A DNA stretch of 64,000 nt. Origin: Chrysophaeum taylorii (Eukaryota > Sar > Pelagophyceae > Pelagomonadales > Pelagomonadaceae). Made by a program: the position numbers and the translations under genes. Within the stretch, counting starts at the first letter, position 1; each line of letters starts with the position of its first letter. The DNA lies in NCBI GenBank assembly GCA_029834535.1, contig JAQMWT010000158.1, positions 1-64,000 of the forward strand. The letters run 5' to 3'. This document shows, one piece after another, positions 5,613 to 35,045 of this stretch. Under the pieces are notes generated by a model. It did not search any database. It had not been told where the DNA came from and saw nothing but the letters and a program-made list of their open reading frames with translations.

Positions 5613-6715
5613 AATCTTAACTACTAATCGACAGATGTTTGTTTGTTTGTTTGTTTGTTTGTTTGTTTGTTTGTTTGTTTGTTTGTCTGTCTGTCTTTAA
5701 ATGTCGACTACTAAGAGGGGGGGGTGTGTGTGGGTTTGTCTGTCTGTCCCTCGATTTAGGGTAATGATCAGGTAGGCGCGAGAGTAAGGATCAGGTAGGC
5801 GCGAGAGCCAGACAGTGATCCTCCAAGCCGTCTACGGCGACCTCGCAGACTATTTCCACGACCCGCGGCGGCTCTTTCAGCGCGCCATTCTCACGCCCCG
5901 TCGAAACGATGTTGTCGATGCTGACAACGCGCGCATGACCGCGGCCTTTTTTTCCCGGAGACGAGGCGTCGGAGTTCTTTTCGGCTGACTAGGCTGGGTC
6001 GGAAGACGACGCCTCGCTCTTTACAGTAGGGTTTTCAACTCCCTGACAACCAACGGGATGCTGACTTTGAGCGCGAGCTTAAGGTCTTCGAAACCTCGAC
6101 CCGTCGCACGGCCACTGCAACGGTACCAGATACATGATCGATCGTGTCGTTGTCACCGAGGCTCCTCCAACCTGTACCCCTTAAGGCCCGCCTACGCCAA
6201 ACGATCAACAAGAGCCAGACGCCCCGCGAGGTCGGCGTCCTCTTTCCCAAGCCCGTCTTCTGCCACGTCCAGCTCTACGTGGCTCTCTGTCGATCGGCAT
6301 CCCCGAGGATATACTCATCTGGGTCGACGACTCCACCCTACCCCACACGAGCTGCGCAATACCGATAAGCCCCCTCCCGGCGTCTACACGCGCACTGTAG
6401 GTGAACTTACTGGGGCCAGGTGAACTTACTGGGGTTGGAGATTGGGACTAGGTGAGCTGAGTAACCAGGTGAAACTGGGACCAGGTGAACTTACTGGGGT
6501 TTTTAGAGTAAAGGGTTTTAGAGTAAACTCAAAGGTTGGCGGCGCGTGCGGATCAAAGCAGCTTAGATTGGCGGAGGCGAGAGCGACGAGCTCAAAGGAG
6601 TTGGTGTGAGCTAGGCGAACTTACTGACCAGGTGAACTTATATGAAACTTACTGGGGCCAGTTGAACTTACTGGGGTTAGCGATTGGGACTAGGTGAACT
6701 TACTGGCCTGCACTT
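5613..6715 (+). mobile_element. Helitron-derived tandem unit 1 (helicase C-terminus remnant)
   Basis: The unit starts at CTTAACTACTAATCGACAG. At 5813 it encodes VILQAVYGDLADYFHDPRRL...RAILTPRRNDVVD, the end of a PIF1-type helicase domain as found in Helitron Rep-helicases. After stops it continues at 6144-6368 with RQTINKSQTPREVG and PKPVFCHVQLYVALCR, matching the conserved Helitron helicase tail (NKSQGQT, then P..VF.HGQLYVALSR). Two residues (GQ) are missing from the NKSQGQT motif. The unit ends with repeats of GGTGAACTTACTGG. It is non-coding now. No Rep HUH motif is present. Confidence 0.65.
5638..5697 (+). repeat. (GTTT)n microsatellite grading into (GTCT)n
   Basis: About twelve consecutive GTTT units are followed by GTCTGTCT. 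Shorter versions of the same tract occur at the equivalent place in each later unit (6740, 8068) and at 20118, so the microsatellite belongs to the repeat unit. Confidence 0.9.
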
Positions 6716-8042
6716 GTCTTAACTACTAATCGACAGATGTTTGTCTGTTTGTCTGTCTGTCTTTAAATGTCGACTGCGAAGAGGGGGGGGTGTGTGTGTG
6801 GGGAGCATGAAGGATGTGGGTGGGTTGTCTGTCTTTAAATGTCGACTGGTAAGAGGGGGGGGTGTGTGTGGGGAGCATGAAGGATGTGGGTGGGTTTGTG
6901 GGGTATGTCTGTCTTTAAATGTCGACTGCTAAGAGGGGGGTGTGTGTGGGGAGCATGAAGGATGTGGGTGGGTTTGTGGGGTATGAGGGATGTGCCTGAC
7001 GGGCGGAGATAAGTATGTCTGTCTGTCTGTAAATGTCGATAGCTAAGAGGGGGGGGTGTGTGTGGGGATGTCTGTCCGTCTCTCGATTTAGGGTAAGGAT
7101 CATGTAGGCGCGGGCGTAAGGATCAGGTAGGCGCGAGAGCCAGATAGTGATCCTCCAAGCCGTCTACGGCGACCTCGCAGACTATTTCCACGACCCGCGG
7201 CGGCTCTTTCAGCGCGCAATTCTCACGCCCCGTCGAAACGATGTTGTCGATGCTGACAACGCGCGCATGACCGCGGCCTTTTTTTCCCGGAGACGAGGCG
7301 TCGGAGTTCTTTTCGGCTGACTAGGCTGGGTCGGAAGACGACGCCTCGCTCTTTACAGTAGAGTTTTCAACTCCCTGACAACCAACGGCATGCTGACTTT
7401 GATCGCGAGCTTAAGTCTTCGAAACCTCGACCCGTCGCACGGCCACTGCAACGGTACCAGATACATGATCGATCGTGTCGTTGTCACCGAGGCTCCTCCA
7501 ACCTGTATCCCTTAAGGCCCGCCTACGCCAAACGATCAACAAGAGCCAGACGCCCCGCGAGGTCGGCGTCCTCTTTCCCAAGCCCGTCTTCTGCCACGTC
7601 CAGCTCTACGTGGCTCTCTGTCGATCGGCATCCCCGAGGATATACTCATCTGGGTCGACGACTCCACCCTACCCCACACGAGCTGCGCAATACCGATAAG
7701 CCCCCTCCCGGCGTCTACACGCGCACTGTAGGTGAACTTACTGGGGCCAGGTGAACTTACTAGGGTTGGAGATTGGGACTAGGTGAGCTGAGTGACCAGG
7801 TGAAACTGGGACCAGGTGAACTTACTGGGGTTTTTAGAGTAAAGGGTTTTTAGAGTAAACTCAAAGGTTGGCGGCGCGTGCGGATCAAAGCAGCTTAGAT
7901 TGGCGGAGGCGAGAGCGACGAGCTCAAAGGAGTTGGTGTGAGCTAGGCGAACTTACTGACCAGGTGAACTTATAAAACTTACTGGACCAGGAACTTACTG
8001 GGGTTAGCGATTGGGACTAGGGGAACTTACTGGCCTGCACTT
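6716..8042 (+). mobile_element. Helitron-derived tandem unit 2
   Basis: Near-identical to unit 1 but longer, because its 5' part carries extra iterations of a block containing TTTAAATGTCGACTGCTAAG plus a G-rich tract (6760-7050). The helicase remnant starts at 7139 and the NKSQTPREVG stretch is at 7475-7699, again without the GQ residues. Stops break the frame as in unit 1. Confidence 0.65.
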
Positions 8043-9364
8043 GTCTTAACTACTAATCGACAGATGTTTGTCTGTTTGTCTGTCTGTCTTTAAATGTCGA
8101 CTGCGAAGTGTGTGTGGGGAGCATGAAGGGTGGGTGGGTTGTCTTAAATAAATGTTAAACCGAGGGGGTGGGGGCATGAAGGATGTGGGTGGGTTTGTGG
8201 GGTATGTCTGTCTTTAAATGTCGACTGCTAAGAGGGGGGTGTGTGCGGGGAGCATGAAGGATGTGGGTGGGTTTGTGGGGTATGAGGGATGTGCCTGACG
8301 GGCGGAGATAAGTATGTCTGTCTGTCTGTAAATGTCGATAGCTAAGAGGGGGGGGTGTGTGTGGGGATGTCTGTCCGTCTCTCGATTTAGGGTAAGGATC
8401 ATGTAGGCGCGGGCGTAAGGATCAGGTAGGCGCGAGAGCCAGATAGTGATCCTCCAAGCCGTCTACGGCGACCTCGCAGACTATTTCCACGACCCGCGGC
8501 GGCTCTTTCAGCGCGCCATTCTCACGCCCCGTCGAAACGATGTTGTCGATGCTGACAACGCGCGCATGACCGCGGCCTTTTTTTCCCGGAGACGAGGCGT
8601 CGGAGTTCTTTTCGGCTGACTAGGCTGGGTCGGAAGACGACGCCTCGCTCTTTACAGTAGGGTTTTCAACTCCCTGACAACCAACGGGATGCTGACTTTG
8701 AGCGCGAGCTTAAGGTCTTCGAAACCTCGACCCGTCGCACGGCCACTGCAACGGTACCAGATACATGATCGATCGTGTCGTTGTTGTCACCGAGGCTCCT
8801 CCAACCTGTATCCCTTAAGGCCCGCCTACGCCAAACGATCAACAAGAGCCAGACGCCCCGCGAGGTCGGCGTCCTCTTTCCCAAGCCCGTCTTCTGCCAC
8901 GTCCAGCTCTACGTGGCTCTCTGTCGATCGGCATCCCCGAGGATATACTCATCTGGGTCGACGACTCCACCCTACCCCACACGTGCTGCGCAATACCGAT
9001 AAGCCCCCTCCCGGCGTCTACACGTGCACTGTAGGTGAACTTACTGGGACCAGGTGAACTTACTGGGGTTGGAGATTGGGACTAGGTGAGCTGAGTGACC
9101 AGGTGAAACTGGGACCAGGTGAACATACTGGGGCTTTTAGAGTAAAGGGTTTTTAGAGTAAACTCAAAGGTTGGCGGCGCGTGCGGATCAAAGCAGCTTA
9201 GATTGGCGGAGGCGAGAGCGACGAGCTCAAAGGAGTTGGGGTGAGCTAGGTGAACTTACTGACCAGGTGAACTTATATGAAACTTACTGCCAGTATTACT
9301 GGGACCAGACCTGAACTTACTGGGGTTAGAGATTGGGACTAGGTGAACTTACTGGCCTGCACTT
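8043..9364 (+). mobile_element. Helitron-derived tandem unit 3
   Basis: Third copy, with the helicase remnant from about 8448 and the tail motif at 8775-9002, also lacking GQ. It ends in GGTGAACTTACTGGCCTGCACTT, the same terminal block that closes units 1 and 2 and the distant copy at 33.5 kb. It stops only about 75 bp before the Elongin C start codon, so element sequence may supply part of that gene's upstream region. Confidence 0.65.
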
Positions 9365-9438
9365 GTACGTCCCTAAACCCCAGTAGTAGGCGGCGTTCCA
9401 CGTAATATTATTACGCGTAGGGAGCGCGCGTTGAGCTT

Positions 9439-20104: not shown

Positions 20105-20300
20105 TACTAATTGGCAGATGTTTGTCTGTCTGTCTGTCTGTTTGTTTGTCTTTAAAGATCGACTGCTAAGAGGGGTGTGTGTGGGGGGGGCATGAAGGAT
20201 GTGGGTGGTTTTGAGATACGTATGCGGAACCTAGTCGTTGTCTTTAAATGTCGACTGCTAAGAGGGGGGTTGTTTGTCTTTAAATGTCGACTGCTAAGAG
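20105..20300 (+). repeat. Cluster of Helitron-associated TTTAAATGTCGACTGCTAAG blocks
   Basis: Three copies of the block (about 20149, 20241 and 20276; the first reads AAAGATCGACTGC) preceded by a GTCT/GTTT microsatellite, as in the 5.6-9.4 kb units. The same block recurs at 32684, so the whole 20.3-32.7 kb region is bracketed by it in the same orientation. Confidence 0.7.
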
Positions 20301-20863
20301 TAGGGTCGGATAAGAAAGTTCGTACGAGCCGTTAACTATGTTTCAGTTTGTACTAAGATATACTCAACGGATCGCTGAGCTATGTTCATTTGTACTCAAG
20401 CAGTATGTGCCGCCACGCCGCGAGATCGTCGCGATGGAACTAGTCCCCATAGTGAAGTCGGCATCCTTTCGTCCCCTCACGCAAAAAAAGGAAAAAGCCC
20501 ACGCGTTTTAGGACCCGTCGTTGCGGCGCGGGCTAGTCTCGTTTTCTTATCCGACCGTATACATTATACCGGAAATCTACATTTTCGTTTGCACACCTTT
20601 GTAGCTTTGGCTACAAGTGAACTTCACGCGAACTTCCACATCTTTTACGTCATCTTCGATGCGGCCCTCCCCCTTCGGCACGGAGACCCGGCACGGAGAC
20701 CGTTGGGCCGCGAAAGATCGCATTGCTTCAACACTGCGTCGACGTCAGTGCTTTGCTCGCAGACGTCACTACCAGACGACCCCCCCCGATTCCTTCTCCC
20801 CGTTTCTAGGACTTCTCGACGAAGGCGAGGACTGAGGAGAGCCGTGCTGTGGTGCACGACATC

Positions 20864-22844
20864 ATGCGACGGATGGGAAGGAAGGCGCGTCGTCAGGAAA
20901 CCCAAGGCCGCGCCGTCCTCATACAAGTCACCAAGACGTGTGAAAGTCTTGTGGCCGCGGCGCTGAGTGGACGCAGCATCGGGCTTTACCCTCCCGAGTT
21001 TGTGAAAAAAATGTTGGGGAGGGAGCACCTCATCTCGCTATGCAACTTGGTCTTCCGGCACGCGAACTTCGTGAACGTCGACCACCGCGATGTCATCAGC
21101 GCTGTAGTCGGCGAAGCCTTCCAGTGGCACGTTAATGTGGAACGACCTACGACTGACGTTGCAGATGGCGCGACTCCGGTGTCAAGGTCGCCGGGTGTTG
21201 TTGTCACGTCGTTGAACGGGACGAGTGAGTTCCCGACGTGGGCATGTTCTGTGCTTAATGAGAAAGCCGACTTTTGGTCTCGAGCCACGGTCCCCGCTTC
21301 ACCAGTTGACGCTGAACCTCGTCCAGACGACCGACCTCAACCTCGATCGTTTCATGTCAAACGACTCGCGTCGATGACGCAGTGGACGTCCGTGCACGAG
21401 CACGAACTGCGTGGCGGGATTCGTGGTGCCGTGATTGCGGAATTTGTGAAGGGAAGCTACGACCAATACTGGGCCGATCCTGTAGCTGATTGGGACCGTA
21501 AGTTCGTGATCGACACATCGTTTGCGATAGGCTGCATACTTTGTGGTACCCTTCGATTTGTGCAGAATGGAGGCCACCTCGATGTGGATCGACTGATATG
21601 TCCGGACGAGCGGCCCGCTGCTTCCATTGGAAATGGTCCATTTGCATCCCACCGAGGTGCACGCGGTCACTCCGAATGTGGAATTCTTACCGCCCCATCT
21701 TTGCGACGTGAGTCAATCTCGAGTGACATACCGAAAGCATCGCGTCGAAAACATGCGACCACAGGTGCAGAGCGATGCACGATTCTTTCTTTACGTTTTG
21801 GCTCGCGAATTGGCAAGAGAAACGCCGTTCATCACGTGCTTACCCGAACGTTTATGATGATGAAGACAATGCACTTGCTTCCCAGAAAAAAAGTCCCTTT
21901 TCCAATGACACTGGCCCGGACAAGCCGACAGCACGACATCGCAAAAAGCGTTGCCGACGGAATGATTTGCTGGAACCTGAATTGGAAGCCGCAACAGCAC
22001 CTCGTCGTGGTGGACTGCATCGTGATGGTGGAACTGAGTTCGCCTTTGTTGCGGAGGGTGAGAACTTTCTAGCCTGGCCGCCAGTCAAGACAATGTTGTC
22101 CGAAGCACACGTGCCGTGTGATTTGGTGCAGCGAGTTGCCTTCGGCATTGTGGACGGCCGGCAAACGCGACAAACGAGCGCCTTCAGCGCAGTGTTTGGG
22201 CACACGCGCTCATTCTGCAACTATACCCACGACTTCGCCACAAGTGAGTCCCCCCCTGAGATAATGTCAGTGACATTTACACAGATAAAAAGGAGCGAGA
22301 AGCCGCAAGGCGAATGTGCCGATTTGAAGACGTGTTTAATGACCACCGGCAGTGGGCGTTTTTCCGCCCGCTTTGGGAGGGACTTGATGCTGCCGTCCGC
22401 AGCGCTTTTCAATTCAATGACGGCAAGTGCGTGCAAGTGCACATCTTTCAACAGCAAATTGTTGCTGGGCGTTATCGGCCGCACAATGATTACTCGGAAC
22501 GCGGAAACATTACGATTGTCGCGCTGCTGCATGTGTCTCCACCGCGGAATGCGACCGTGTCCGCCTTTCTCAAAACCCATCCGTGTGGCATCGTCGCATG
22601 GAAGGCTTCGGATCCTTCTTCCCCCAAACACCAAGCAGTGTGCTTTCACGAGCGCCTTGCCGCTATTGCCTTTCCATCCCACTGCGTCCACGAATCATCA
22701 GTGCCAGTCCCTTTTCCACGTGACTGTGTGGTGCTCAAGTCTGCTTCGTTCTACGATGTTCCTCCGGTTACCTTCCTCAGGCTGTTCCCTGCACATCCCT
22801 ACAAGCCAGGGTCCGCGTCTACTTGCGCTGGCTCCCGAAACTAG
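20864..22844 (+). CDS. Four-exon gene with candidate 2-oxoglutarate/Fe(II) dioxygenase domain
   Basis: Exons 20864-21497, 21566-21707, 21771-22243 and 22285-22844 splice into one 602-residue frame. The introns are 68, 63 and 41 nt, all with GTRAGT donors and CAG acceptors; the summed exon length is a multiple of three, which supports the model. A basic RHRKKRCRR stretch near the middle looks nuclear. The last exon has features of a double-stranded beta-helix dioxygenase: RPHNDYSERGNITIVALL (HxD, His about 483 and Asp about 485) and, 67 residues later, HESSVPVPFPR (distal His about 552 and Arg about 562). This could be an AlkB- or TET/JBP-like nucleic-acid oxidase, but family placement is open. 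The start ATG is uncertain; 20876 is an alternative. Confidence 0.55.
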
Positions 22845-22975
22845 ACCGATTTCCCTCCCCATCGGACGCGCTCCATCACCAATCCAACGGACGCGCTCCA
22901 ACGCCACTCCACCTGCGCATGAAACACCGCACCCCTTTGGATCATCTATGAATCTGCCCTCAAGCACCGACGAAA

Positions 22976-23281
22976 TGGGCGTTTTTGCCGGGGTTGCTAC
23001 TGCCTCGCCCGACCTCCACGACCCGGGGTCGTTGGTGCGCTTGGCGGTTTGGGCCAAAATGCTACTTCCATGCGTCGCGCTCGATGAAGACGACTGGCCA
23101 TCGCTTCCGCGACGTGGCAAGAAACATGTGTGTGTAGCCTGGCTGGAAACGAAAGGCGATCTCGGGTGGACGTACGAAAGGAAAGTGAGCTCGGTGCCAC
23201 CGTCACACGTGCGACCATTGTGCTCCTCTCGAGGGGGAACTAACGCAGAGCTAGATTTTAGGAGTGCATGCGAGCTAGTTA
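22976..23281 (+). pseudogene. PWWP-like domain copy 0
   Basis: The frame encodes DLHDPGSLVRLAVWAKMLLPCVALDEDDWPSLP..., then KHVCVAWLETKGD and KVSSVPPSHVR, matching the PWWP-like part of the downstream 909-bp units. Its upstream exon is not present, so it appears to be a partial fourth copy at the left edge of the tandem array. Confidence 0.5.
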
Positions 23282-23621
23282 ACTAATAAGTAATTAAAAA
23301 GTCGACTGCTACGAGGGTTTCGTTTCTAATATGTAGTTAAAAGAGAAGCCACGATGTTCTCGCGTCGAAGGAAATGGATACAGCGCTCTGGCCCCGCGCG
23401 GCCGAGTTGGTGCCCTCTCGCAGACAAACTCACCCACGAGATGAGGTGCATCGGGCGTGCCTTGGCAGGTTGAGCTCAGAAGTGTGTTTTTTTGCTGTCG
23501 TGCGAGATTGTCTTGATTGGCCGACACGCAGCGCACCATCCTCGTGCACTTTTTTGGCGCTTTGTTCCTTCGTTCCCAGGGGGCCCATCAACCTACGTCC
23601 GTCGGTTGGGCACGTGGCCTG

Positions 23622-24152
23622 ATGGAATTTGATTCTCGGGCTCAAGATCGATTACAGCGCGAAGCCAGTGTCATCAACGAGCTCACAAACAAAGAATCAA
23701 CGGGATACATCACCACATCGGAGAGGATCGTCCTTATGAACAAAGAGCTCGGGCTGGCCGCGCGCGCCCAGAGCCGTCAGGGCACGTACAAGCTCGTCGA
23801 GATACTCTCAGCATGCACCAGCAGCAATGTCGACGTTATCCGTACCTCCGCTCCCGCTGCGTCTCCAACAGCTTTTGGTGTACTGGAGCACGACGCACCG
23901 AGAGAGAGCGTTTCGACAGGAGACCCCGACCTCCACGACCCGGGGTCGTTGGTGCGCTTGGCGGTTTGGGCCAAAAAGCTACTTCCATGCGTCGCGCTCG
24001 ATGAAGACGACTGGCCATCGCTTCCGCGACGTGGCAAGAAACATGTGTGTGTAGCCTGGCTGGAAACGAAAGGCGATGTCGGGTTGACGTACGAAGGGAA
24101 AGTGAGCTGGGTGCTACCGTCACATGTGCGACTCCTCTCGAGGGGGAACTAA
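23622..24152 (+). CDS. PWWP-like protein, tandem copy 1
   Basis: A 176-residue frame from ATG 23622. The N-terminal half is helical (MEFDSRAQDRLQREASVINEL...). The C-terminal half is PWWP/Tudor-like: VRLAVWAKKLLPCVALDEDDWPS, then HVCVAWLETKGD and KVSWVLPSHVR, resembling the VWAK..P..A / V.F / WV.PS.L.P pattern of PWWP domains that read methylated histone tails. The frame stops soon after the domain, so relative to copy 3 this is a truncated duplicate; whether it is expressed is unknown. An exon upstream (ATG 23353, MFSRRRKWIQRSG) may belong to it, but no clean splice joins them. Confidence 0.4.
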   Translation: MEFDSRAQDRLQREASVINELTNKESTGYITTSERIVLMNKELGLAARAQSRQGTYKLVEILSACTSSNVDVIRTSAPAASPTAFGVLEHDAPRESVSTGDPDLHDPGSLVRLAVWAKKLLPCVALDEDDWPSLPRRGKKHVCVAWLETKGDVGLTYEGKVSWVLPSHVRLLSRGN

Positions 24153-24530
24153 CGCAGAGCGAGATTTTAGGAGTGCATGCGAGCTAGTTTTTTAATGAGT
24201 AATTAAAAAGTCGACTGCTACGAGGGTTTCGTTTCTAATATGTAGTTAAAAGAGAAGCCACGATGTTCTCGCGTCGAAGGAAATGGATACAGCGCTCTGG
24301 CCCCGCGCGGCCGAGTTGGTGCCCTCTCGCAGACAAACTCACCCACGAGATGAGGTGCATCGGGCGTGCCTTGGCAGGTTGAGCTCAGAAGTGTGTTTTT
24401 TTGCTGTCGTGCGAGATTGTCTTGATTGGCCGACACGCAGCGCACCATCCTCGTGCACTTTTTTGGCGCTTTGTTCCTTCGTTCCCAGGGGGCCCATCAA
24501 CCTACGTCCGTCGGTTGGGCACGTGGCCTG

Positions 24531-25061
24531 ATGGAATTTGATTCTCGGGCTCAAGATCGATTACAGCGCGAAGCCAGTGTCATCAACGAGCTCACAAACA
24601 AAGAATCAACGGGATACATCACCACATCGGAGAGGATCGTCCTTATGAACAAAGAGCTCGGGCTGGCCGCGCGCGCCCAGAGCCGTCAGGGCACGTACAA
24701 GCTCGTCGAGATACTCTCAGCATGCACCAGCAGCAATGTCGACGTTATCCGTACCTCCGCTCCCGCTGCGTCTCCAACAGCTTTTGGTGTACTGGAGCAC
24801 GACGCACCGAGAGAGAGCGTTTCGACAGGAGACCCCGACCTCCACGACCCGGGGTCGTTGGTGCGCTTGGCGGTTTGGGCCAAAAAGCTACTTCCATGCG
24901 TCGCGCTCGATGAAGACGACTGGCCATCGCTTCCGCGACGTGGCAAGAAACATGTGTGTGTAGCCTGGCTGGAAACGAAAGGCGATGTCGGGTTGACGTA
25001 CGAAGGGAAAGTGAGCTGGGTGCTACCGTCACATGTGCGACTCCTCTCGAGGGGGAACTAA
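24531..25061 (+). CDS. PWWP-like protein, tandem copy 2
   Basis: Same protein as copy 1, residue for residue, 909 bp downstream. Ends with LLSRGN where unit 3 continues into the methyltransferase gene. The perfect identity argues for a recent event or collapsed/duplicated assembly. Confidence 0.4.
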   Translation: MEFDSRAQDRLQREASVINELTNKESTGYITTSERIVLMNKELGLAARAQSRQGTYKLVEILSACTSSNVDVIRTSAPAASPTAFGVLEHDAPRESVSTGDPDLHDPGSLVRLAVWAKKLLPCVALDEDDWPSLPRRGKKHVCVAWLETKGDVGLTYEGKVSWVLPSHVRLLSRGN

Positions 25062-25439
25062 CGCAGAGCGAGATTTTAGGAGTGCATGCGAGCTAGTTTT
25101 TTAATGAGTAATTAAAAAGTCGACTGCTACGAGGGTTTCGTTTCTAATATGTAGTTAAAAGAGAAGCCACGATGTTCTCGCGTCGAAGGAAATGGATACA
25201 GCGCTCTGGCCCCGCGCGGCCGAGTTGGTGCCCTCTCGCAGACAAACTCACCCACGAGATGAGGTGCATCGCGCGTGCCTTGGCAGGTTGAGCTCAGAAG
25301 TGTGTTTTTTTGCTGTCGTGCGAGATTGTCTTGATTGGCCGACACGCAGCGCACCATCCTCGTGCACATTTTTGCCGCTTTCTTCCTTCGTTCCGAGGGG
25401 GTCCATCAACCTACGTCCGTCGGTTGGGCACGTGGCCTG

Positions 25440-27642
25440 ATGGAATTTGATTCTCGGGCTCAAGATCGATTACAGCGCGAAGCCAGTGTCATCAACGAGC
25501 TCAGAAACAAAGAATCAACGGGAAACATTACCACATCGGAGAGGATCGTCCTAATGAACAAAGAGCTCGGGCTGGCCGCGCGCGCCCAGAGCCGCCAGGG
25601 CACGCACAAGCTCGTCGAGATACTGTCAGCATGCACCAGCAGCAATGTCGACGTTATCCGTACCTCCGCGCCCGCTGCGTCTCCAACAGCTTTTGGTGTA
25701 CTGGAGCACGACGCGCCGAGAGAGAGCGTTTCGGCAGGAGACCCCGACCTCCACGACCCGGGGTCGTTGGTGCGCTTGGCGGTTTGGGCCAAAAAGCTAC
25801 TTCCATGCGTCGCGCTCGATGAAGACGACTGGCCATCGCTTCCGCGACGTGGCGAGAAACATGTGTGTGTAGCCTGGCTGGAAACGAAAGGCGATGTCGG
25901 GTTGACGTACGAAGGGAAAGTGAGCTGGGTGCCACCGTCACACGTGCGTCCCAATGATGTCGCCGGGGGAGGATCGCACGAACGATTGGAACCGTTTCGC
26001 CTATTTTGGTTTCGCGAGGTAGGAGTTCGCATGGTGCACGACATCTGGAAAAGCCTCACCCCGCACACGCTGCTGGCAACGTGGAGTCATCCTCCTGAAC
26101 TCGCAACGTCGTTGGACTTTGTGACCTGGGCCGTGTACACGCTCCGTCTTGACATGCCGACGTCAACGGCCTGGGACGCCGCCGTAAGCAAATTGCGGGT
26201 TTCGACGTCGTTATTCGCCCTTAAACAAGGGCTTGACGACCTCACGCAGTTTGCCCGTGCTCGCCGCGCCATCCGCGGTGTTACCGCCGTCCGAACCGAC
26301 TTCCCCGAGCCTTTGTGGCTTTGTGATTTGGAACACCCCACCCTGTCCTCGTCGGCGTTGGACGAGTCGTGGTGGTGTTCGTCGCAACGCCACAAGCCCT
26401 TGCGCGAAAGGGACTTTGCACTTCGCATGGTTCTGCTCGCCGAAAATACTCTCGGCGTTGGGCACAAAGACGCCCGGCGAAACATCTGCCTCTACGAGCA
26501 GTCCTTGGGCGTCAAAGCCGTCGTTTCGCAGTTGGCCAACATGGCACCATCGAGCCGCCCGAGGGTACTTTTCAGCAACGCGTTGCTGTTGCGACCCGAA
26601 AAAAAAACGTGTCGTTGCACACCTAGCGTCTTCAGACACGCCATCGGGTCGAACTCGTCGACAGGCTGTTCGCATAGCTGCCCCCACGGCATCTTCGCGT
26701 CCACCGGCACGGATAACGACCGACCAGATGACGACATACGCTGCCGCGGACGTTGCCTCACAGAAAGTCCAGGATCTTTTCTCAACGCCGACGCGCATCT
26801 TGGAGCCACCAACATCGAAGGCGCGGTTGCGATCGTCAACGAGGTCCTGGCAGCCAAGCCTTTGCCTCAAGGTGATGACTTGACCAAGGCGAGGAGCATA
26901 ATCGCGAGCTGCAACCTCTTGCCCCAAGCATCTGCGAAACAAGGTCGAAGGCAACGGGTGTCATACAAAGCGCCGACCCCGGACCAAGCTGCTGCTCTTC
27001 TTGTAGTGCGGCTCAATGACGATGCAACCTCACCGACTTCTTGGATGAGGCAAGATCGAACTCTCGCAATGCCGAGCGAGATCGAGCACAAACTGCTCGG
27101 AAGATCGTTCTCCCCTGTGATGATCGAGGCTGCCATGTGCGACTGGCTCGACCCGAGTTCACCCGCGGCATTATGTCGAGGACGGCCGCGGCCCTTGTGG
27201 TCGTTGTTCTGCGGCATTGGCAACGAACTCCCTCCGCTGGCCGACGCCGGCGTGGCGCTCTCGCGCATTTATGCCGTAGACAGCTCGGAGTATGCGCCCA
27301 GAACGTTCGGTGCGCCTGGTTCTTTGCATGACGTAACCTGGCCCATGTGTGCGGTACCTCGCAGCGCGCCAGGCTCAAAAATCTTTTCCCAGCGTCCCAC
27401 TTGAACTTTCTGGTGACATCGGCGATCCATCGTGTCGCATCGACTGGAGTGATGACGCTATTGCTGCGCGCGTTGCGCATGAAGGCGTTCCGGTCATAAT
27501 TGCAGGCTGGCCCTGCAATGGCAACGCAGGCGCTAACAGGAAGGCGCATGACCACGACCCACTGGAAAATGTGGAGAGCGCCATGCTGCTCGTGCTCGTC
27601 CGCATCGTCCACGCGGTGAAGCGGGTTCTCAACACGCTCTAA
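25440..27642 (+). pseudogene. PWWP-like plus DNMT3-like cytosine-C5 methyltransferase, truncated
   Basis: From ATG 25440 the frame gives the helical N-terminus, the PWWP-like domain (about residues 100-170), a long middle part, then PLWSLFCGIGNELPPLADAG, which is motif I (SAM binding) of C5 methyltransferases, followed by YAVDSSEYA (motif II). After a frame change near 27335 comes VPVIIAGWPCNGNAGANR, motif IV with the catalytic Cys in a PCN context as in DNMT3 rather than the PCQ of DNMT1. A 40-nt GTAACC...CCAG intron would join the frames exactly (LHD to AQKSFP), but the donor is weak. A TAA at 27640 stops the frame before motifs VI-X, although DFSPYSRIDEH follows in frame. A poly-A run near 26600 may hide another frameshift. 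PWWP plus DNMT3-like order recalls animal DNMT3. I consider it broken. Confidence 0.55.
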
Positions 27643-27960
27643 GACTTCTCGCCATATTCGAGGATCGATGAGCATACGTCGAAAGAACTAGTCCCTTGCT
27701 TTAAAGCTGATTTGGGTGGAGTTTTTGGTGTTGGCGGCAGGGCGAAACAACACGAGGTGTGCCGCGGGGATTCACGCTGTCAGACAACACACTTTTTTGA
27801 ACTTACAAACGAGTGGAACCGTCGTGTGATAGCTACCATGCATCCAACGTCGCCTGGGTCAGAGAGAGAGTGGGGGGGTGGTTGGAAGAGAGATAACGAG
27901 CTTCTCAAACAAAAGGAATTGGCCGCACAGGGGCACCGTCGATAAGCAGACTCTTCAAGA
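27643..27960. other. Short region between convergent genes, nothing recognised
   Basis: The methyltransferase frame continues after its stop for about 100 codons without recognisable late methyltransferase motifs. The minus-strand neighbour ends at 27961. Confidence 0.4.
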
Positions 27961-29143
27961 TCACGCATCTTCGTGATCATTCTCATGATCCTGAAGAGCC
28001 CGGAGAACAGCAGTCGTGGCACCATTGGTATCAAAGACCAACGCAGACTCGCATTCAACGCGAGTGGCGATGTCGTCGTGGAAATGGTCCACAAGGACAT
28101 TTTTGTCCCAACGGAAGAGAATATCGAGTGCACGGGGTCGTTCATATTTCGCGATGAAAAATCTTGCAAACTTGACCTTGGAGCCTCCCAGGCGCCCTTC
28201 GGCCTTCGCGAGAAATTTTTTAACCCCATGCGGGGCGTGAACAACTACATAGTCACATCTGAAGCAGCTCAACTCGCCATTCCACTTGACGGCGTTCTCT
28301 TCTGGGTCTGCGCACAAAATGCATGTCAGTTGCCATAAACATCAAAAGCGCTCACTGTGGTGGATCCCAGTCGACTTATCGTCCTCTATAACAAGAGGAT
28401 TGTCGGCATTTGAGCCAACGAGCGCGCGGTCTTCTTCTTTCGCAGCGGCGTCAGCGTAGTCGTTTCCAGGGCCGTGGCTGCGGTCACCCACGTCATCAGT
28501 CTTCGAGATCAGGGCGTTGTCGACGTCTTCGTCGCTGTCGTCCTCAATCACAACAGGATGGTCCGCGCTAGCGCCGACAACCCCGTCTCTCGCTGCAAGG
28601 ATGTCTGCTTTGTGAGCGGCACCGCGGTCATCGCCGTGCCCTACGGAGGCATCCAAGACCTCGAAGTCGTCGAAGTTTTCGCAGCCGTCGACCTCGTGAT
28701 ACTGCGCCGAGTATTACACGCCACCGATAGACTTTCTTTATTCCCACTTGCCTTTCGCTTAGGAGGCGAATCAGGATTGAAGTGCGCGATGTCGGACACT
28801 TCGGCCCGAAGCAAACGCCATCCTTGCACGAGTCCGAGGGGAATTGGGGAGTAGTCTCTGGCGGCCAACAATCCTCGCCTTCGTTCAAGCTCGGCACAGC
28901 ATAAGGTCTGTCTTTGAGGTCCGCGGTCACACGATGCTTTGCACCTCTTTTCCGAGACCTCTTGAGCTTCTTCCGCGCCACTGGCTCCTCCCCTGGCTCC
29001 TCCTCCGCTGGCTCCTCCGCTGACTCCTCCGCTGGCGCCAAAACGGCCGAAGGAGGGTCGACACGACCCCCCTCGCCTTCGGGTGTCGATGATGGCTCGT
29101 TGCCCCGGCGCGCTTTTGCGCTACCTCTCGTAACCATGTGCAT
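27961..29143 (-). CDS. Three-exon nuclear-like protein with SUMO-interaction-like motifs and a CxxC pair
   Basis: Exons 29143-28748, 28701-28356 and 28307-27961 (total 1089 nt) splice into 362 residues. The introns are 46 nt (donor GTGGGA) and 48 nt (donor GTGAGC), both ending GCGCAG. The N-terminal part is acidic with a basic stretch (RKKLKRSRKRGAKHR). The middle part has two hydrophobic-acidic motifs, HPVVIEDDSDED and NPLVIEDD, of the type that binds SUMO. The third exon has ELSCFRCDYVVVHAPHGVKKFL, a single CxxC pair, followed by a compact domain. No family is recognised. It lies between the methyltransferase-like gene and the recombinase gene on the same strand as the latter. The start could also be 29152. 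Confidence 0.5.
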
Positions 29144-29738
29144 CTTGCTCATCACGCTTCGTCGCACTAACAATGAGTATTCAAAATATTTCGAGTCCCA
29201 TGACAAAGATACATTGGATCTTGGAAAAAAAAAAGAAGATAAAATAATTCTGCGCGATTTAATGGGTGTTTAGATCTAGGACTCAATTTCCAACTCCGCG
29301 TCGACATGGCGGCGCGGAGGTCGACGGTTTCTTTGTCGTCGAATGTCCATCGCTCGACGGTCCATCGCGCCGCGGTTTCCGCGGTCCGCCTAAGACTGCT
29401 GAGGGTTCCGCTCCGCGCGCCCGCCCTGCGGTTGCAATTGTGATTTCGAGTCTTATGTATGCACAGGTGAAAACTCGTTGGGGATCTAGGAGGACCGCAA
29501 TTTGGAACAATGGCGCGTGACCCGTGTGGCTCGTGGCTACCTCGAGGCAAGGGCGATGGCTGCTGGGAGAAGAGAGGGCTCCCAAAGTCGCAACAGTGGC
29601 CGAGAGGATGGGAAGCAGCACCACGTTCGCCGGGCGCGCTACGCCAGAGGCAAGCTTTGAGCGAATGGGTTGTGTCGTCTGCCCGAAGACAAAATGCGGC
29701 GGTGAATCGTACAGCAGAGGAGTGGGTGTCTGGAGGGT
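29144..29738. other. Spacer between recombinase gene and upstream gene
   Basis: No supported gene on either strand. It holds the presumed promoter of the minus-strand gene starting at 29143. An A-rich run occurs at 29224-29238. Confidence 0.5.
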
Positions 29739-32430
29739 TCAAACCTCCATGTTCCAGAGCTCGGGGATACTTTCTTCATCGCGGCGACGCTTGAGCCACG
29801 TTATCAATGGCTCGCTGCGGTTCGTGAAGTCCTCGTTGACGCAGGCTTCGCACGACCGGAGTCGCATATCGCTCTTGGGATCGGCGAGTGGATCTCCCTC
29901 GACCGATCCGTGCTTATCCCTCGCCCAGGTCATCTGGTCGCGGAGGTAGAGCTCGAGGTTCTCGCCCGCGCTCGCGTGGCCCATGTGCAGTTTCACGAGC
30001 TCCAACTCGGAGCACTTGAGCACGCGGCACATCCAGCCGCAGCTAGATGGCCGCAGGCTTCGATGGTTCGGTAGGGGGTTTGTCCATCCCAGCCTGCGCC
30101 GGGAAACATCATCGTTACAAGAGGAATTTCCCGCACCTGCGGCCATGAACATCCGCTGCAAGTATCGGCGGAACATTTCGTCCTGCCAAGGCTCGCCGCA
30201 CTTGACGCCACCTTCCTCAAAATCGTAGTGGCGGAAGAGCGGCCCTTCCGTTACGTTGTTGGGGATGAAGTAGGTGAGCATGACGTGCACAATTCGCATG
30301 ACCGGGCACAACGCGAGGTTTCGGTCATTGTGGTAGACGCGCTTATACTCCTTGCGGTTCTTCGTGTGGTGCACCTTGGGCGACTTGAAGACGATAAAGT
30401 CGGGGAGCCCCGTGACCTCGTTAAGAATGTCGTTGCCGTGGTGGTCTTTGGGGACGAGGAGGTTGTCGCGGATGTCGATGCCATCGTCCTCGGTTGGTCG
30501 GCCCGCGTGGCACAACCCGAAAATGATCCGGAAAATCGCCAGATGCAGAAAGCACCTGATCGACGGTTGAGCGGATGCCTTCGAGATCCTCTCGACGGCA
30601 CGAAGACACCACCGATGAGCGCCAACGAGACGTCGAAGCCGACAATTGACGTCAAACCAGGGCGGAGGCGATACTTCGCGCGGAATGTCGGTGATGAGAG
30701 CGATGTACTCTTCGTCAAGCCTCTCCTTGACGATGCGTAGTGCACTCAACTGGGGCTGCATCGTGGACGGCACGAGTGCCTTCGCTTTAAGCGTTCCGAC
30801 CACTGTATTGATAATGGGTTGGTCTTTTGCGAAAACACAGAAATTCAGATATGCAATGACCCAGGCAACGTGCGGAGGTTTGAACGTAACGACGCCGTTT
30901 TCATTGAGCTGAAGCCAGGGGTGGCTCATGAAGACTTCGTAGTCGGTCAACGCCGCGACGCGTTCGAACTCGATCCACATGTTCTCGCGCTTGCGAGAAT
31001 ACTGGTCGCTCCCAGTGTTCCCACTAAAAAGGTCGCCGAACGACACGTGCATTAGGGTCCCAACACATGAAAGAAGCTCTTGTGAGTGCACGCAACTACT
31101 ATCTTGGTGCGAATTGGGATTTAAGTAGTTGGCAAAACAACGCAAAAAATAACCGAGTACCGACGATCCGTTGCCCTTGCCAGAAACAAACATCGTCCAT
31201 GGCAATTGGACCGAACGGATAACCTTATCCCTCGAGACATTCGAACCGACATTGGCAAAAAAAGTGTCATGGTACATTTCATCCGTCATGAGCATACCCT
31301 CAACGTCGCCATGGAGATTCCTGAGCGCTTTGGTGGCGCTCGCCAGATCCAAATGATCAGCTCGTACGGAATCCCGCGCGGTCTGTGATCGTTGGCACGT
31401 ACCGACGACCGACCCCGGGTTTTCGAGCGCCGAGTGGGGATTTTCGCTGGCGATGCTTTTGACCAACTCGCCGATAAGTTCCTTTGAGCAACCAAGCATC
31501 GCTGAGACCCACTTGGAGCGATCAACGCCGCGATGAACAGACGACTCCATGCCGCTGTCGTTAAGTGCGAGACCACGATCCAGCATGGTTTCGATGACTG
31601 CTCTCGGGGGTCTCCGAAAATGCCTTGTTTCCAACGCGCAATTGGAGAATGAGGGCTCCAAAAAAGCCCGGAACGCCGCCGATCGCGTACGCGCTGTTGA
31701 GACAGTTTACAGGCACTTCAACATTGGGCTTGTTTGCAAGGCTCGGCAGCTGGGGATGCGCTTCAAGCCTCCAGTAAAAAAGGCCGAAGCAGTCCAGCGC
31801 GTAACCCGCGCGCGCGGCATAGAGAAGTCCGTACCTTTCGTTGAAGGTGGCTCGGAGTCTCTCGGATGTGCTGGCCTCCAATGTCTTGTGAAATGCCCAT
31901 TCGTACGTGTACACCCGGTACCTCCCGCGCAAGGCAAAGCGCCACCAGTCGGGATCGTCTGGATGCACGCCGATCATACGCGAAAATTCATTCACCGTGC
32001 AAGCTCTGGTAACACCGCCAGCGTGGCCAAAGAACGCGAAGTTGAGGAGACTCCGCAGGCAGGTGGGGGGAAAGTGACGCCGACGATTCTGGCGAAGCCA
32101 AGGAATCTGCGCCCGAAAGAATCGGGCGACCCTCCCCTTGCCGACATAACTCATATCCGCCGACTCCAATATTGTACAGAGCGTGTCGACGTGGCGCTCT
32201 TCCAAGTAGGCGAGCTCGTCGAGCACATCGCAGTGATCTTCCACACTGAAGCCGAGGTAAAACAACAGCCATCTCAGCTGGTACGCGTCTCGCGGCACCA
32301 ATTTTAACTTCGAGGCGAGGTCCGTCAGCGAATGCGACTTGCCGAGTTCAATATTGACCGCAGCGTCGACGACACTCAAGTCGGGGGGCAACGGGATCGC
32401 GTTGAGTCGGCGCTTCCTCGAGGTCGGCAT
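29739..32430 (-). CDS. Tyrosine-recombinase-like protein (Crypton/captain-like)
   Basis: ATG at 32430. A 55-nt intron (31710-31656, donor GTAAAC, acceptor TTTTTTGGAG) joins the first frame to the second and gives about 878 residues. The C-terminal 300 residues resemble tyrosine recombinases: LHLAIFRIIFGLCHAGRPTEDDG around the first catalytic Arg, and NHRSLRPSSCGWM...LELVKLHMGHASAGENLELYL, matching box II (H-x-x-R-like, then L-G-H-x-x...-T-x-x-Y). The final Tyr is in LYLRDQM. The spacing HRSLR is not the canonical HxxR, so activity is uncertain. Such enzymes cut and rejoin DNA and move Crypton and Starship elements and DIRS retrotransposons; no reverse transcriptase is adjacent here. It sits at the right edge of the 20-32 kb block and is transcribed inward. 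Confidence 0.6.
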
Positions 32431-32683
32431 GGGTCGAGAGGGAGAGGCGAGGAGCGCGAGCGTGTCGACGCCGAGATGTCGACGCCGAGATGGTTGAAAT
32501 CCGAACTATAACTAAACGATGATGCCGTTGAGGCCTTCAAATCGAGGCTAACCGCCTAAAATTTCCCCCAAAAAACGGTTCATGCCCAACGGACGCTTCA
32601 AGTATCATATATTCAATATCCTATATCCAATATCAAATATCAAACTATGACATCACATATCCAATATCCCTTTAGTAGAGGTG
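32431..32683. repeat. AT-rich region with iterated ATATCC/AATATC motifs
   Basis: At 32608-32675 the hexamers ATATCC/AATATC recur about eight times over roughly 70 bp, in otherwise GC-rich surroundings, directly upstream of the recombinase gene and directly before the Helitron-type block at 32684. It could be an element end or recombinase binding array. An eleven-base direct repeat (CCGAGATG...) lies at 32471-32493. Confidence 0.55.
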
Positions 32684-33530
32684 TCTTTAAATGTCGACTG
32701 CTAAGAGGGGGGTGTGTGTGGGGTGCTAAGATGTGTCCTCGATTCAGGGTAAGGATCAGGTAGGCGCGCGAGCTAGACAGTGATCCTATAAGCCGTCTAC
32801 GGCGACCTCGCAGACTTTTTCCACGACCCGCGGCGGCTCTTTCAGCGCGCCACTCTCACGCCCCGTCGAAACGATGTTGTCGATGCTGACAACGCGCGCA
32901 TGACCGCGGCCGCTTTTTCCCCGGAGACGAGGCGTCGGAGTTCTTTTCGGCCGACTAGGTTGGGTCGGAAGACGACGCCTCGCTCTCAAGAGTCGAGTTT
33001 TGAACTCCCCGACAACCAACGGCATGCTGACGTTGAGCGCGAGCTTAAGGTCTTCGCAACCTCGACCCGTCGCACGGCCACTGCAACGGTACCAGATACA
33101 TGATCGATCGTGCCGCGTCACCGAGGCTCCTCCAACCAGTATCCCTTAAGGCCCGCCTACGCCAAACGATCAACAAGAGCCAGGGCCAAACGCCCCGCGA
33201 GGTCGGCGTCCTCTTGCCCAAGCCCGTCTTCTGCCACGTCCAGCTCTACGTGGCTCTCTGTCGATCGGCAACCCCGAGGATATCCTCTTCTGGGTCGACG
33301 ACTCCACCCTACCCCACACGTGCTGCGCAATACCCATAAGCCCCCTCCCGGCGTCTACACGCGCACTGTAGGTGAACTTGCTGGGACCAGGTGAACTTAC
33401 TGGGTTAGAGATTGGGACTAGGTGAACTTACTGACCAGGTTAACTTATATGAAACTTGCTGGGACCAGGTGAACTTAGTGGGGTTAGAGATTGGGACTAG
33501 GTGAACATACTGGCCTGCACTTATTTCTAA
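32684..33530 (+). mobile_element. Helitron-derived unit, distant fourth copy with intact NKSQGQT
   Basis: Same order as the 5.6-9.4 kb units: the TTTAAATGTCGACTGCTAAG block, the PIF1-type helicase end (from about 32783), and the Helitron tail. Here the tail reads INKSQGQTPREVGVLLPKPVFCHVQLYVALCRS (33160-33265), keeping the GQ residues that all three tandem copies have lost. It ends with GGTGAAC(A/T)TACTGGCCTGCACTT. The minisatellite near its end is shorter. It is broken by stops and non-functional. Confidence 0.65.
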
Positions 33531-33632: not shown

Positions 33633-35045
33633 ATGGCGGGTGCGACGGCGGGTGGTCCCAAGGCGTCCTTCCACAGCATGTTCGCGTTCGCGCTGATGAT
33701 GTCGATCGGGGCGGGCGTGCTGTCGCTGCCGCAAAACGTGAGCCGGACCGGGGTCTGTGCGTCGTTGGTGTTGTCGTTGTACGTCGGGTTCGCTGTTTTG
33801 TGGTGCATGCAGCTGATGCTGCGCGCCAAGACGGTGTGCGAGGAGCATGGCGTCCGGATCGCGACATACCAAGATCTGGGAACGATATTACTCGGAGGCG
33901 AGGCGGGTCGGCGCGTCGTCGAGTTGAGCGTGTGCGGGTTCCAGCTCGGCGTGCTGTGCGTCTACTTTGATTTTATCGCGACGTGTCTCGTCGTGCTGTT
34001 CCCAACGGTGTTCGTCGGCGCGCGTCGGGTCGCGTGGATGGCGGTGTTTTACGTGCCCATCTGCGCGGCGTGCTGTTTGCGGTATTTGCGCGATTTGGGA
34101 TTTGTGGCCGAAGTAGCGATCAGCTCCTACGTGATCGGGTGGTGTATCATCGTCATCATCTGCGCCGTGCGCGTCGGGAACATGGGGTTTGAAAACACGA
34201 GACTCGAACCCAAGCACACCGAGTGGTCGGTGGTCGGGTTGTTTGGAGCATTGTGCTACTCTTTCGAGGGAGTGCCGGCGTCGTTGTGTCAAATGGTCGA
34301 CACCCTCGAGGAACGCCCCCGGGCGGCCGAATTGATCACGGTGTCCATCCTGGCGATTCTCGGGGTCTACGTATTCACCGAGTACGTGGGCGCCTTCGCT
34401 TTCGTGCGACCCGGCGACCCGCTCTCGCTCTCTCTCGTCGAACATTACGGCCTTACCTTCCCTTCGATTTCGCTCAACCTTCTTATCGTCTTCGCCGTTT
34501 TTCTCAAGTACCCGCTCCAGTTCTTTCCGATGATCACCATCTTCGAGCGAAACATGAACTTTGGACCTGGCGCCCGACTCCGCGCCAATACCGCCTCCGC
34601 GCCCAAGGCTATCGAGGTCAAGCCAAGCAATTACTCCCGCGTCGAGCAAGGAGTCTCCGACGACAACACGCCGCTCCTGCGCGCCAAGCTCCAAGAAGAA
34701 GAAGAAGAAGAGGACGACACGATCTGGATCTCGCGCTCGGATGGTGGCGTCTATGTTGTTATGCTCCGTTCCGCCATTGTCGCCCTCACTGCTGTCGTCG
34801 CGCTTGTTGTCCCAAACCTCACCGATCTCATCGACCTTGTCGGCGTCCTCTTTGCACCCGTTCTCGCGATTGTCTTTCCTTGCATTTTCGACCTCGGGAT
34901 CAAGCGCAAGTTCGCCCCAATACCCTCCATGGGCGTTCCCTTCGAAACCTCACTCACCATCTTCTTCCTCACCACTGGCATCATCGGCTGGCTCTTTGGT
35001 AGCACCCAGCAGATCACCAACCTCGCCTCTGGGGGCGCGAGATAA
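33633..35045 (+). CDS. Amino acid permease, AAAP family (SLC36/SLC38-like)
   Basis: 470 residues with about eleven membrane helices. The first helix carries FALMMSIGAGVLSLPQNVSRTG, the family hallmark GxGxLxLP. An acidic cytoplasmic loop (EEEEEEDD) lies between helices 9 and 10. AAAP carriers move neutral or cationic amino acids with protons or sodium across plasma or vacuolar membranes; the substrate cannot be predicted here. No intron is needed. It stands alone between the Helitron-derived unit and the LINE remnant. Confidence 0.85.
   Translation: MAGATAGGPKASFHSMFAFALMMSIGAGVLSLPQNVSRTGVCASLVLSLYVGFAVLWCMQLMLRAKTVCEEHGVRIATYQDLGTILLGGEAGRRVVELSVCGFQLGVLCVYFDFIATCLVVLFPTVFVGARRVAWMAVFYVPICAACCLRYLRDLGFVAEVAISSYVIGWCIIVIICAVRVGNMGFENTRLEPKHTEWSVVGLFGALCYSFEGVPASLCQMVDTLEERPRAAELITVSILAILGVYVFTEYVGAFAFVRPGDPLSLSLVEHYGLTFPSISLNLLIVFAVFLKYPLQFFPMITIFERNMNFGPGARLRANTASAPKAIEVKPSNYSRVEQGVSDDNTPLLRAKLQEEEEEEDDTIWISRSDGGVYVVMLRSAIVALTAVVALVVPNLTDLIDLVGVLFAPVLAIVFPCIFDLGIKRKFAPIPSMGVPFETSLTIFFLTTGIIGWLFGSTQQITNLASGGAR

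Follow-up and report, generated by a model that had tools for sequence, protein, structure and literature searches.

A multicopy mobile element with recombinase-like and putative DRM-like methyltransferase genes in the pelagophyte Chrysophaeum taylorii

Hosts often silence transposons by DNA methylation. Mobile elements carrying DNA methyltransferases have been described among LINE and DIRS retrotransposons of dinoflagellates and Gypsy retrotransposons of charophytes, the DIRS members also having a tyrosine recombinase; in the parts of that report drawn on here, the elements with their own cytosine methyltransferase are retrotransposons (PMC5890265). Among DNA transposons, Cryptons are described in the sections used here as ending in direct repeats of 4–6 bp (PMC3212892). 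At the level of titles and abstract openings, the literature yielded no methyltransferase-bearing DNA transposon of the sort reported below beyond the named retrotransposons. The main text of the C. taylorii genome paper (PMC10366177) contains no mention of transposable, repeat, retrotransposon or Crypton. Methyltransferase-bearing mobile elements are therefore known as such; the one described here is apparently a DNA transposon and most likely a new variant.

The window that we analyzed is a stretch of 64,000 nucleotides, positions 1–64,000 of contig C158 (JAQMWT010000158.1), in the 70.8-Mb assembly of C. taylorii, a pelagophyte stramenopile. Coordinates refer to this window unless they are preceded by a C or L number, which denotes another contig or sequence. 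The features are as follows.

20549..32671, no strand: mobile element, worn copy of about 12.1 kb, delimited by synteny with the copies elsewhere in the genome; sharply defined on the right, approximately on the left
20810..21688, plus strand: gene 1 fragment, matching residues 1–293 of a 606-aa frame in C113
21676..23009, plus strand: segment replacing the remainder of gene 1, holding the dioxygenase-candidate ORF 22314–22844
23294..25111, plus strand: two tandem units that duplicate the beginning of the methyltransferase gene, 909 bp each, identical at 909/909 bases
25335..27309, plus strand: exon 1 of the putative DRM-like methyltransferase gene; frame open from 25335, first ATG at 25440
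27310..27364, plus strand: predicted 55-base intron (GT...AG), kept in 7/7 other copies aligned and absent from the C36 relative
27365..27642, plus strand: second exon of the methyltransferase gene, including motif IV (PCN, near 27505) and the stop codon
28628..29206, minus strand: N-terminal stub of gene 3, deletion junction at 28814–28818
29739..32430, minus strand: recombinase-like gene, broken copy, in ORFs 29739–31661 and 31561–32430
32651..32671, no strand: right terminus (...CAATATCCCT), its end at 32671 common to 5/8 sequences

This block is a genuine multicopy mobile element with a methyltransferase gene. When the genome was searched at the protein level, the recombinase-like ORF had 43 exon-level matches, which lie on at least 11 contigs, C158 included; both counts are lower bounds. 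For comparison, up to 20 kb was fetched around the matches on each of the 10 other contigs (less for C300, because of contig ends). In most of these copies the pieces stand in the same order at the nucleotide level, so that the further copies with conserved gene order for which the first-pass annotation had proposed a search do exist. The C378 copy is without the left part, C309 matches the window only partially, and C671, with no DNA match of at least 200 bases to the window, is a decayed relative visible at the protein level. The unit recurs with a common sharp right end in unrelated flanks. Five of the eight sequences examined (window, C113, C173, C589 and C300) end at 32671; C378 falls short of this point by about 16 bp, the end of C542 is a variant, and C664 has lost it. 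When seven 2-kb right flanks were compared with one another, no two matched onward from the junction. Three short matches occur among the seven: one of 56 bp, pairing base 1218 of the C113 flank with base 1 of the C300 flank, and two, of 102 and 57 bp, linking distant parts of the C300 and window flanks. Over 12,654 aligned bases, which take in an inserted dispersed repeat, the C113 and C173 copies have 99.15% identity. Spread over 11 contigs, a sharp end in unrelated surroundings and two nearly identical copies bear out the mobility that had been suspected.

The left end is placed at about 20549, where similarity between the window and C113 begins, and these first bases also terminate an unrelated repeat beside C113. 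Both ends of C113 carry a 10-bp direct repeat, CCCTATACAT; the window ends share a 5-bp match only, and the other left ends are missing or unsure. Terminal inverted repeats are absent, the matches between the two ends (20501–21000 against 32301–32700) being of 7–9 bp. Exact ends were to have come from an empty site, and the search of the genome found no intact one; both flanks of C113 are repeats themselves. Fragments of the left terminus, 33–135 bp long, lie on 12 contigs (C112, C464, C670, C341, C60, C671, C154, C633, C351, C675, C359 and C467), none of which is among the right-terminus matches listed. Beside the left end, an inverted repeat, GGTCGGATAAGAAA...TTTCTTATCCGACC, with arms about 250 bp apart (20304–20556), has the look of a MITE-like insert, and immediately to the right of the element lies an amino-acid transporter gene (33633–35045; PF01490, 170.7 bits).

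The block had been delimited in the first-pass annotation by a bracketing 20-mer, TTTAAATGTCGACTGCTAAG. These repeats are present, with exact copies at 20243, 20279 and 32686, and they exceed chance, 15 window matches with up to three mismatches comparing with 0.00 expected. However, the 20-mer is part of a dispersed repeat of about 1 kb, also found within or beside several element copies, and it occurs exactly 2265 times in the genome (1099 + 1166). Bracketing by it thus marks no boundary, and we rejected it in favor of the common right end at 32671. In the window, the dispersed repeat occupies 5696–9367, 20151–20298 and 32686–33447.

A fuller copy of about 15 kb, on C113, carries gene 1 (+), the PWWP-like/methyltransferase gene (+), gene 3 (−) and the recombinase-like gene (−), and the window copy is decayed relative to it. 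A 3976-bp stretch of C113 is missing from the window, C589 and C513, all three with the same deletion junction; C542 and C664 have a different common deletion, of about 2.36 kb, inside that stretch. One junction common to three copies shows that deletion derivatives, the window copy among them, spread or moved on. The missing stretch completes gene 3, a minus-strand ORF of about 960 aa in C113. In the window stub, CxxC letters occur only past the deletion junction, where C113 reads differently, and the SIM-like acidic ORF is a separate small ORF at 28342–28656. What had been described as a SIM/CxxC protein is therefore not one protein, and we abandoned it as a unit. A reading of gene 3 as an Hsp70, from motif inspection, was also rejected: with an HMM of E. 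coli DnaK, HscC and part of HscA, 34/500 shuffles were as good, and gene 3 gave no Pfam or PDB match and no Hsp70 ATPase domain.

Gene 1 is a stop-free frame of 606 aa in C113, and its DNA similarity to the window stops at 21675. The segment that follows in the window is also in C513 and C317, is absent from C113, and occurs without the gene 1 start on C694 and C52. The pattern H-x-D...H...R is the signature of 2OG-Fe(II) dioxygenases, and it can be read by eye in ORF 22314–22844. This ORF has no recognizable 2OG domain and no Pfam or PDB match, and its segment is not part of the fuller copy; the TET/JBP-like dioxygenase formerly proposed as an oxidative eraser was accordingly dropped. Diverged relatives of gene 1 (53–61%) lie in open frames at C581:37472–38914, C667:266584–267429 and C3:136693–137394.

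The methyltransferase ORF (25335–27404, 689 aa) has a C5-methyltransferase-like motif I at 27207. After predicted splicing, the C-terminal 138 aa, spanning motifs I–IV, match PDB entries 4onj and 4onq ("DNA methyltransferase," which we take to be tobacco DRM) at E 2.8e-5, with four further DRM2 rows at E 0.76–0.78; a longer piece of the protein gave E 0.0011. Motifs I and IV, with the catalytic Cys, are thus homologous to known C5 enzymes. The protein ends just after motif IV, as DRM chains do (chain 357, match to 352), and the TAA after exon 2 is kept in 7/7 other copies aligned, C309 having upstream frame shifts. A relative at C36:51695–53626, a stop-free, intron-free frame of 677 aa that also ends after motif IV, is 42% identical over residues 49–660 and 50% identical over exon 2; this supports the methyltransferase frame and its splice. 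Since both this relative and those of gene 1 are diverged and open, older or sister families may exist.

Upstream, exon 1 holds a PWWP-like stretch near 25761 and candidates for motifs VI (26433), VIII (26556) and X (27093). These candidates stand in the DRM order, and with stretches of human DNMT3A as reference, 326/2000 and 186/2000 shuffles were as good, which is not significant for either singly; they had no PDB match. Pfam recognized no family in the 689-aa ORF, PF00145 and UBA included, and did not match the PWWP-like stretch. Exchanging the two halves of the protein produced no Pfam or NCBIfam match, and a protein look-up with words from the first 500 residues returned nothing informative. 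As judged from motifs and PDB matches, the enzyme is DRM-like and its motif order probably permuted (VI–X before I–V). A DNMT3-like gene with a PWWP-like reader had been called here: the methyltransferase stands, but its best matches are of the DRM type rather than DNMT3, and the reader is without a Pfam match. The complete identity of the two tandem units upstream could mean that the duplication is very recent, or it could stem from the assembly.

A PF00145 profile search of the genome gave 124 matches, none on C158 (123/474 candidates scored). Beside the C378 copy, a 527-aa ORF at L035:6489–8069 (minus) has a C5 DNA methylase match of 25.2 bits (cut-off 22). It adjoins integrase-like and Copia-like reverse-transcriptase-like ORFs (by eye; one was scanned and had no Pfam match), and a second methylase-like ORF, also by eye, lies close to it at L035:2304–3083 (plus). 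Methyltransferase-bearing repeats thus look abundant in this alga.

Ratios of dN/dS were 0.45–0.56 for the recombinase in pairs including C542 or C309 and 0.46–0.55 for the methyltransferase in pairs with C309, which we count as support for purifying selection on these two genes in diverged pairs. In all other pairs for these genes the values range widely, between 0.42 and 2.9, as expected from dead copies and few changes. For gene 3, the ratio was 0.64 for C300 against C113 or C173 and 0.87–1.21 for other pairs. The element shows no mutational footprint of methylation in the form of CpG depletion (observed/expected 1.21, against 1.22–1.23 in two other parts of the window) or of a context bias in C-to-T changes (CG 110/12893, CHG 43/5680, CHH 128/18522). 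Such figures argue against prolonged heavy methylation or else in favor of efficient repair.

The recombinase-like gene is the first from the right end of the element (gene start 32430, right end 32671) and reads inward. The first-pass annotation was correct about this position and direction; the identity that it gave the gene, tyrosine recombinase-like, holds at the motif level, with no family match. An annotated protein, P0001 (903 aa), served for comparison, and the window gene is broken relative to it. Tyrosine recombinases are recognized by R, H-x-x-R, GH and Y boxes in order. By eye, P0001 has GRPTED at 664, NHRSLR at 795, MGHA at 823 and ELYLR at 833, the second box (H-x-x-x-R) being one residue longer than usual. 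An HMM of nine phage integrases aligned to P0001 in the same register as these boxes at −0.5 bits, a score reached by 2/300 shuffles, 146 of the 300 having scored at all. Given the motifs and the place of the gene at the element end, we consider it quite likely that this gene encodes a tyrosine recombinase.

It is useful to weigh this against the possibility that the 903-aa protein is some other kind of protein and that gene 1, gene 3, the host or the machinery of another transposon moves the element. Such a reading could draw on the databases, HMMs and structures: the protein matched no Pfam, NCBIfam or PHROGs family, its PDB rows (E 0.013, 0.79 and 0.44) were unrelated molecules, PF00589 had no match anywhere in the genome, and the AlphaFold2 model of P0001 has a mean pLDDT of 29.7. 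Across the element genes, Pfam, PHROGs and NCBIfam scans gave chance-level matches only (E 0.11 and 0.17). The four boxes nevertheless stand in order and in the register that the phage-integrase HMM aligns best, and copies without most of gene 3 have moved. We therefore regard movement by another enzyme as unlikely.

Less likely still is a tyrosine-recombinase retrotransposon of the DIRS type, or a degenerate relative resembling SymbioDIRS-Dnmt3, whose reverse transcriptase was lost or went unrecognized. DIRS elements that combine a tyrosine recombinase with DNMT3 exist in dinoflagellates, as parts of PMC5890265 describe, and reverse transcription could give left-terminus fragments with no right terminus listed. 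Against this origin, Pfam found no reverse transcriptase in gene 1, the methyltransferase, gene 3 or the recombinase-like protein. The ends have no terminal repeats beyond 9-bp matches, and no split direct or inverted terminal repeats, and a predicted intron interrupts the methyltransferase gene, whose strand is not that of the recombinase-like gene. The presence of several unfamiliar genes on the two strands, one of them integrase-like and placed at an end, could also point to an integrated virus or virus-like element, but we found no viral-contig relative of the recombinase-like protein, the methyltransferase or gene 3 (few patterns) and no PHROGs match in any of the four proteins, and this origin is very improbable.

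We thus favor, as the probable explanation, a multicopy DNA transposon of C. taylorii, 12–15 kb long, with recombinase-like and DRM-like methyltransferase genes. In its life cycle, a tyrosine-type recombinase would excise the element, perhaps as a circle, and insert it at a short matching sequence. Upon insertion or later, the DRM-like enzyme would carry out de novo cytosine methylation of the element, and the methylated element could pass as silenced host DNA or tune its own expression. More tentatively, and with greater doubt than belief, we propose that this is the first recombinase-type DNA transposon, as opposed to a retrotransposon, to carry a core DRM-type, circularly permuted methyltransferase together with a chromatin-reader-like module, and that, in algae only distantly related to plants, it places silencing marks on its own DNA when newly integrated.

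An element that appears to carry both its own recombinase and a DNA-methylating enzyme may mark its own DNA when moving, and this may be relevant in several ways. First, if a DNA transposon does have such a gene, the same strategy would have evolved once more, in a different mobility class and a different algal lineage. Second, the purpose of element-borne methyltransferases would become testable. Finally, the likeness to plant DRM bears on the origin of rearranged methyltransferases.

Like SymbioDIRS-Dnmt3 and KnitGypsy-Dnmt3, the element is multicopy, mobile and equipped with a cytosine methyltransferase, and SymbioDIRS-Dnmt3 also has a tyrosine recombinase. Those two, in the parts of PMC5890265 considered, are retrotransposons with a reverse transcriptase and an unrearranged Dnmt3, whereas the present enzyme is DRM-like and scans of the four gene products detected no reverse transcriptase domain. 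With Cryptons, in the sections of PMC3212892 used, it shares a recombinase-like gene, the lack of terminal inverted repeats and a short direct repeat, seen in one copy. It differs in having several genes and no recognized Crypton domain, and the TATGG termini of CryptonS were not seen. With Starships, as portrayed in portions of PMC12134995, it shares a recombinase-like gene placed first at one end and reading inward, several genes, and a length that in C113 reaches about 15 kb. Starships are described there as fungal only, however, and about 15 kb is their low size limit. Profiles recognized neither a Crypton-kind tyrosine recombinase nor the DUF3435 of captain genes in the recombinase-like protein, which has no Pfam family at all, so that the Crypton- or Starship-like membership first suggested was not upheld. 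The enzyme itself resembles plant DRM (PDB 4onj, 4onq and DRM2 entries) in its match over motifs I–IV and its end just after motif IV. Unlike plant DRM, it has no UBA domain by Pfam, its upstream motifs VI, VIII and X are candidates only, it begins with a PWWP-like N-terminal stretch, and it is carried on a mobile element.
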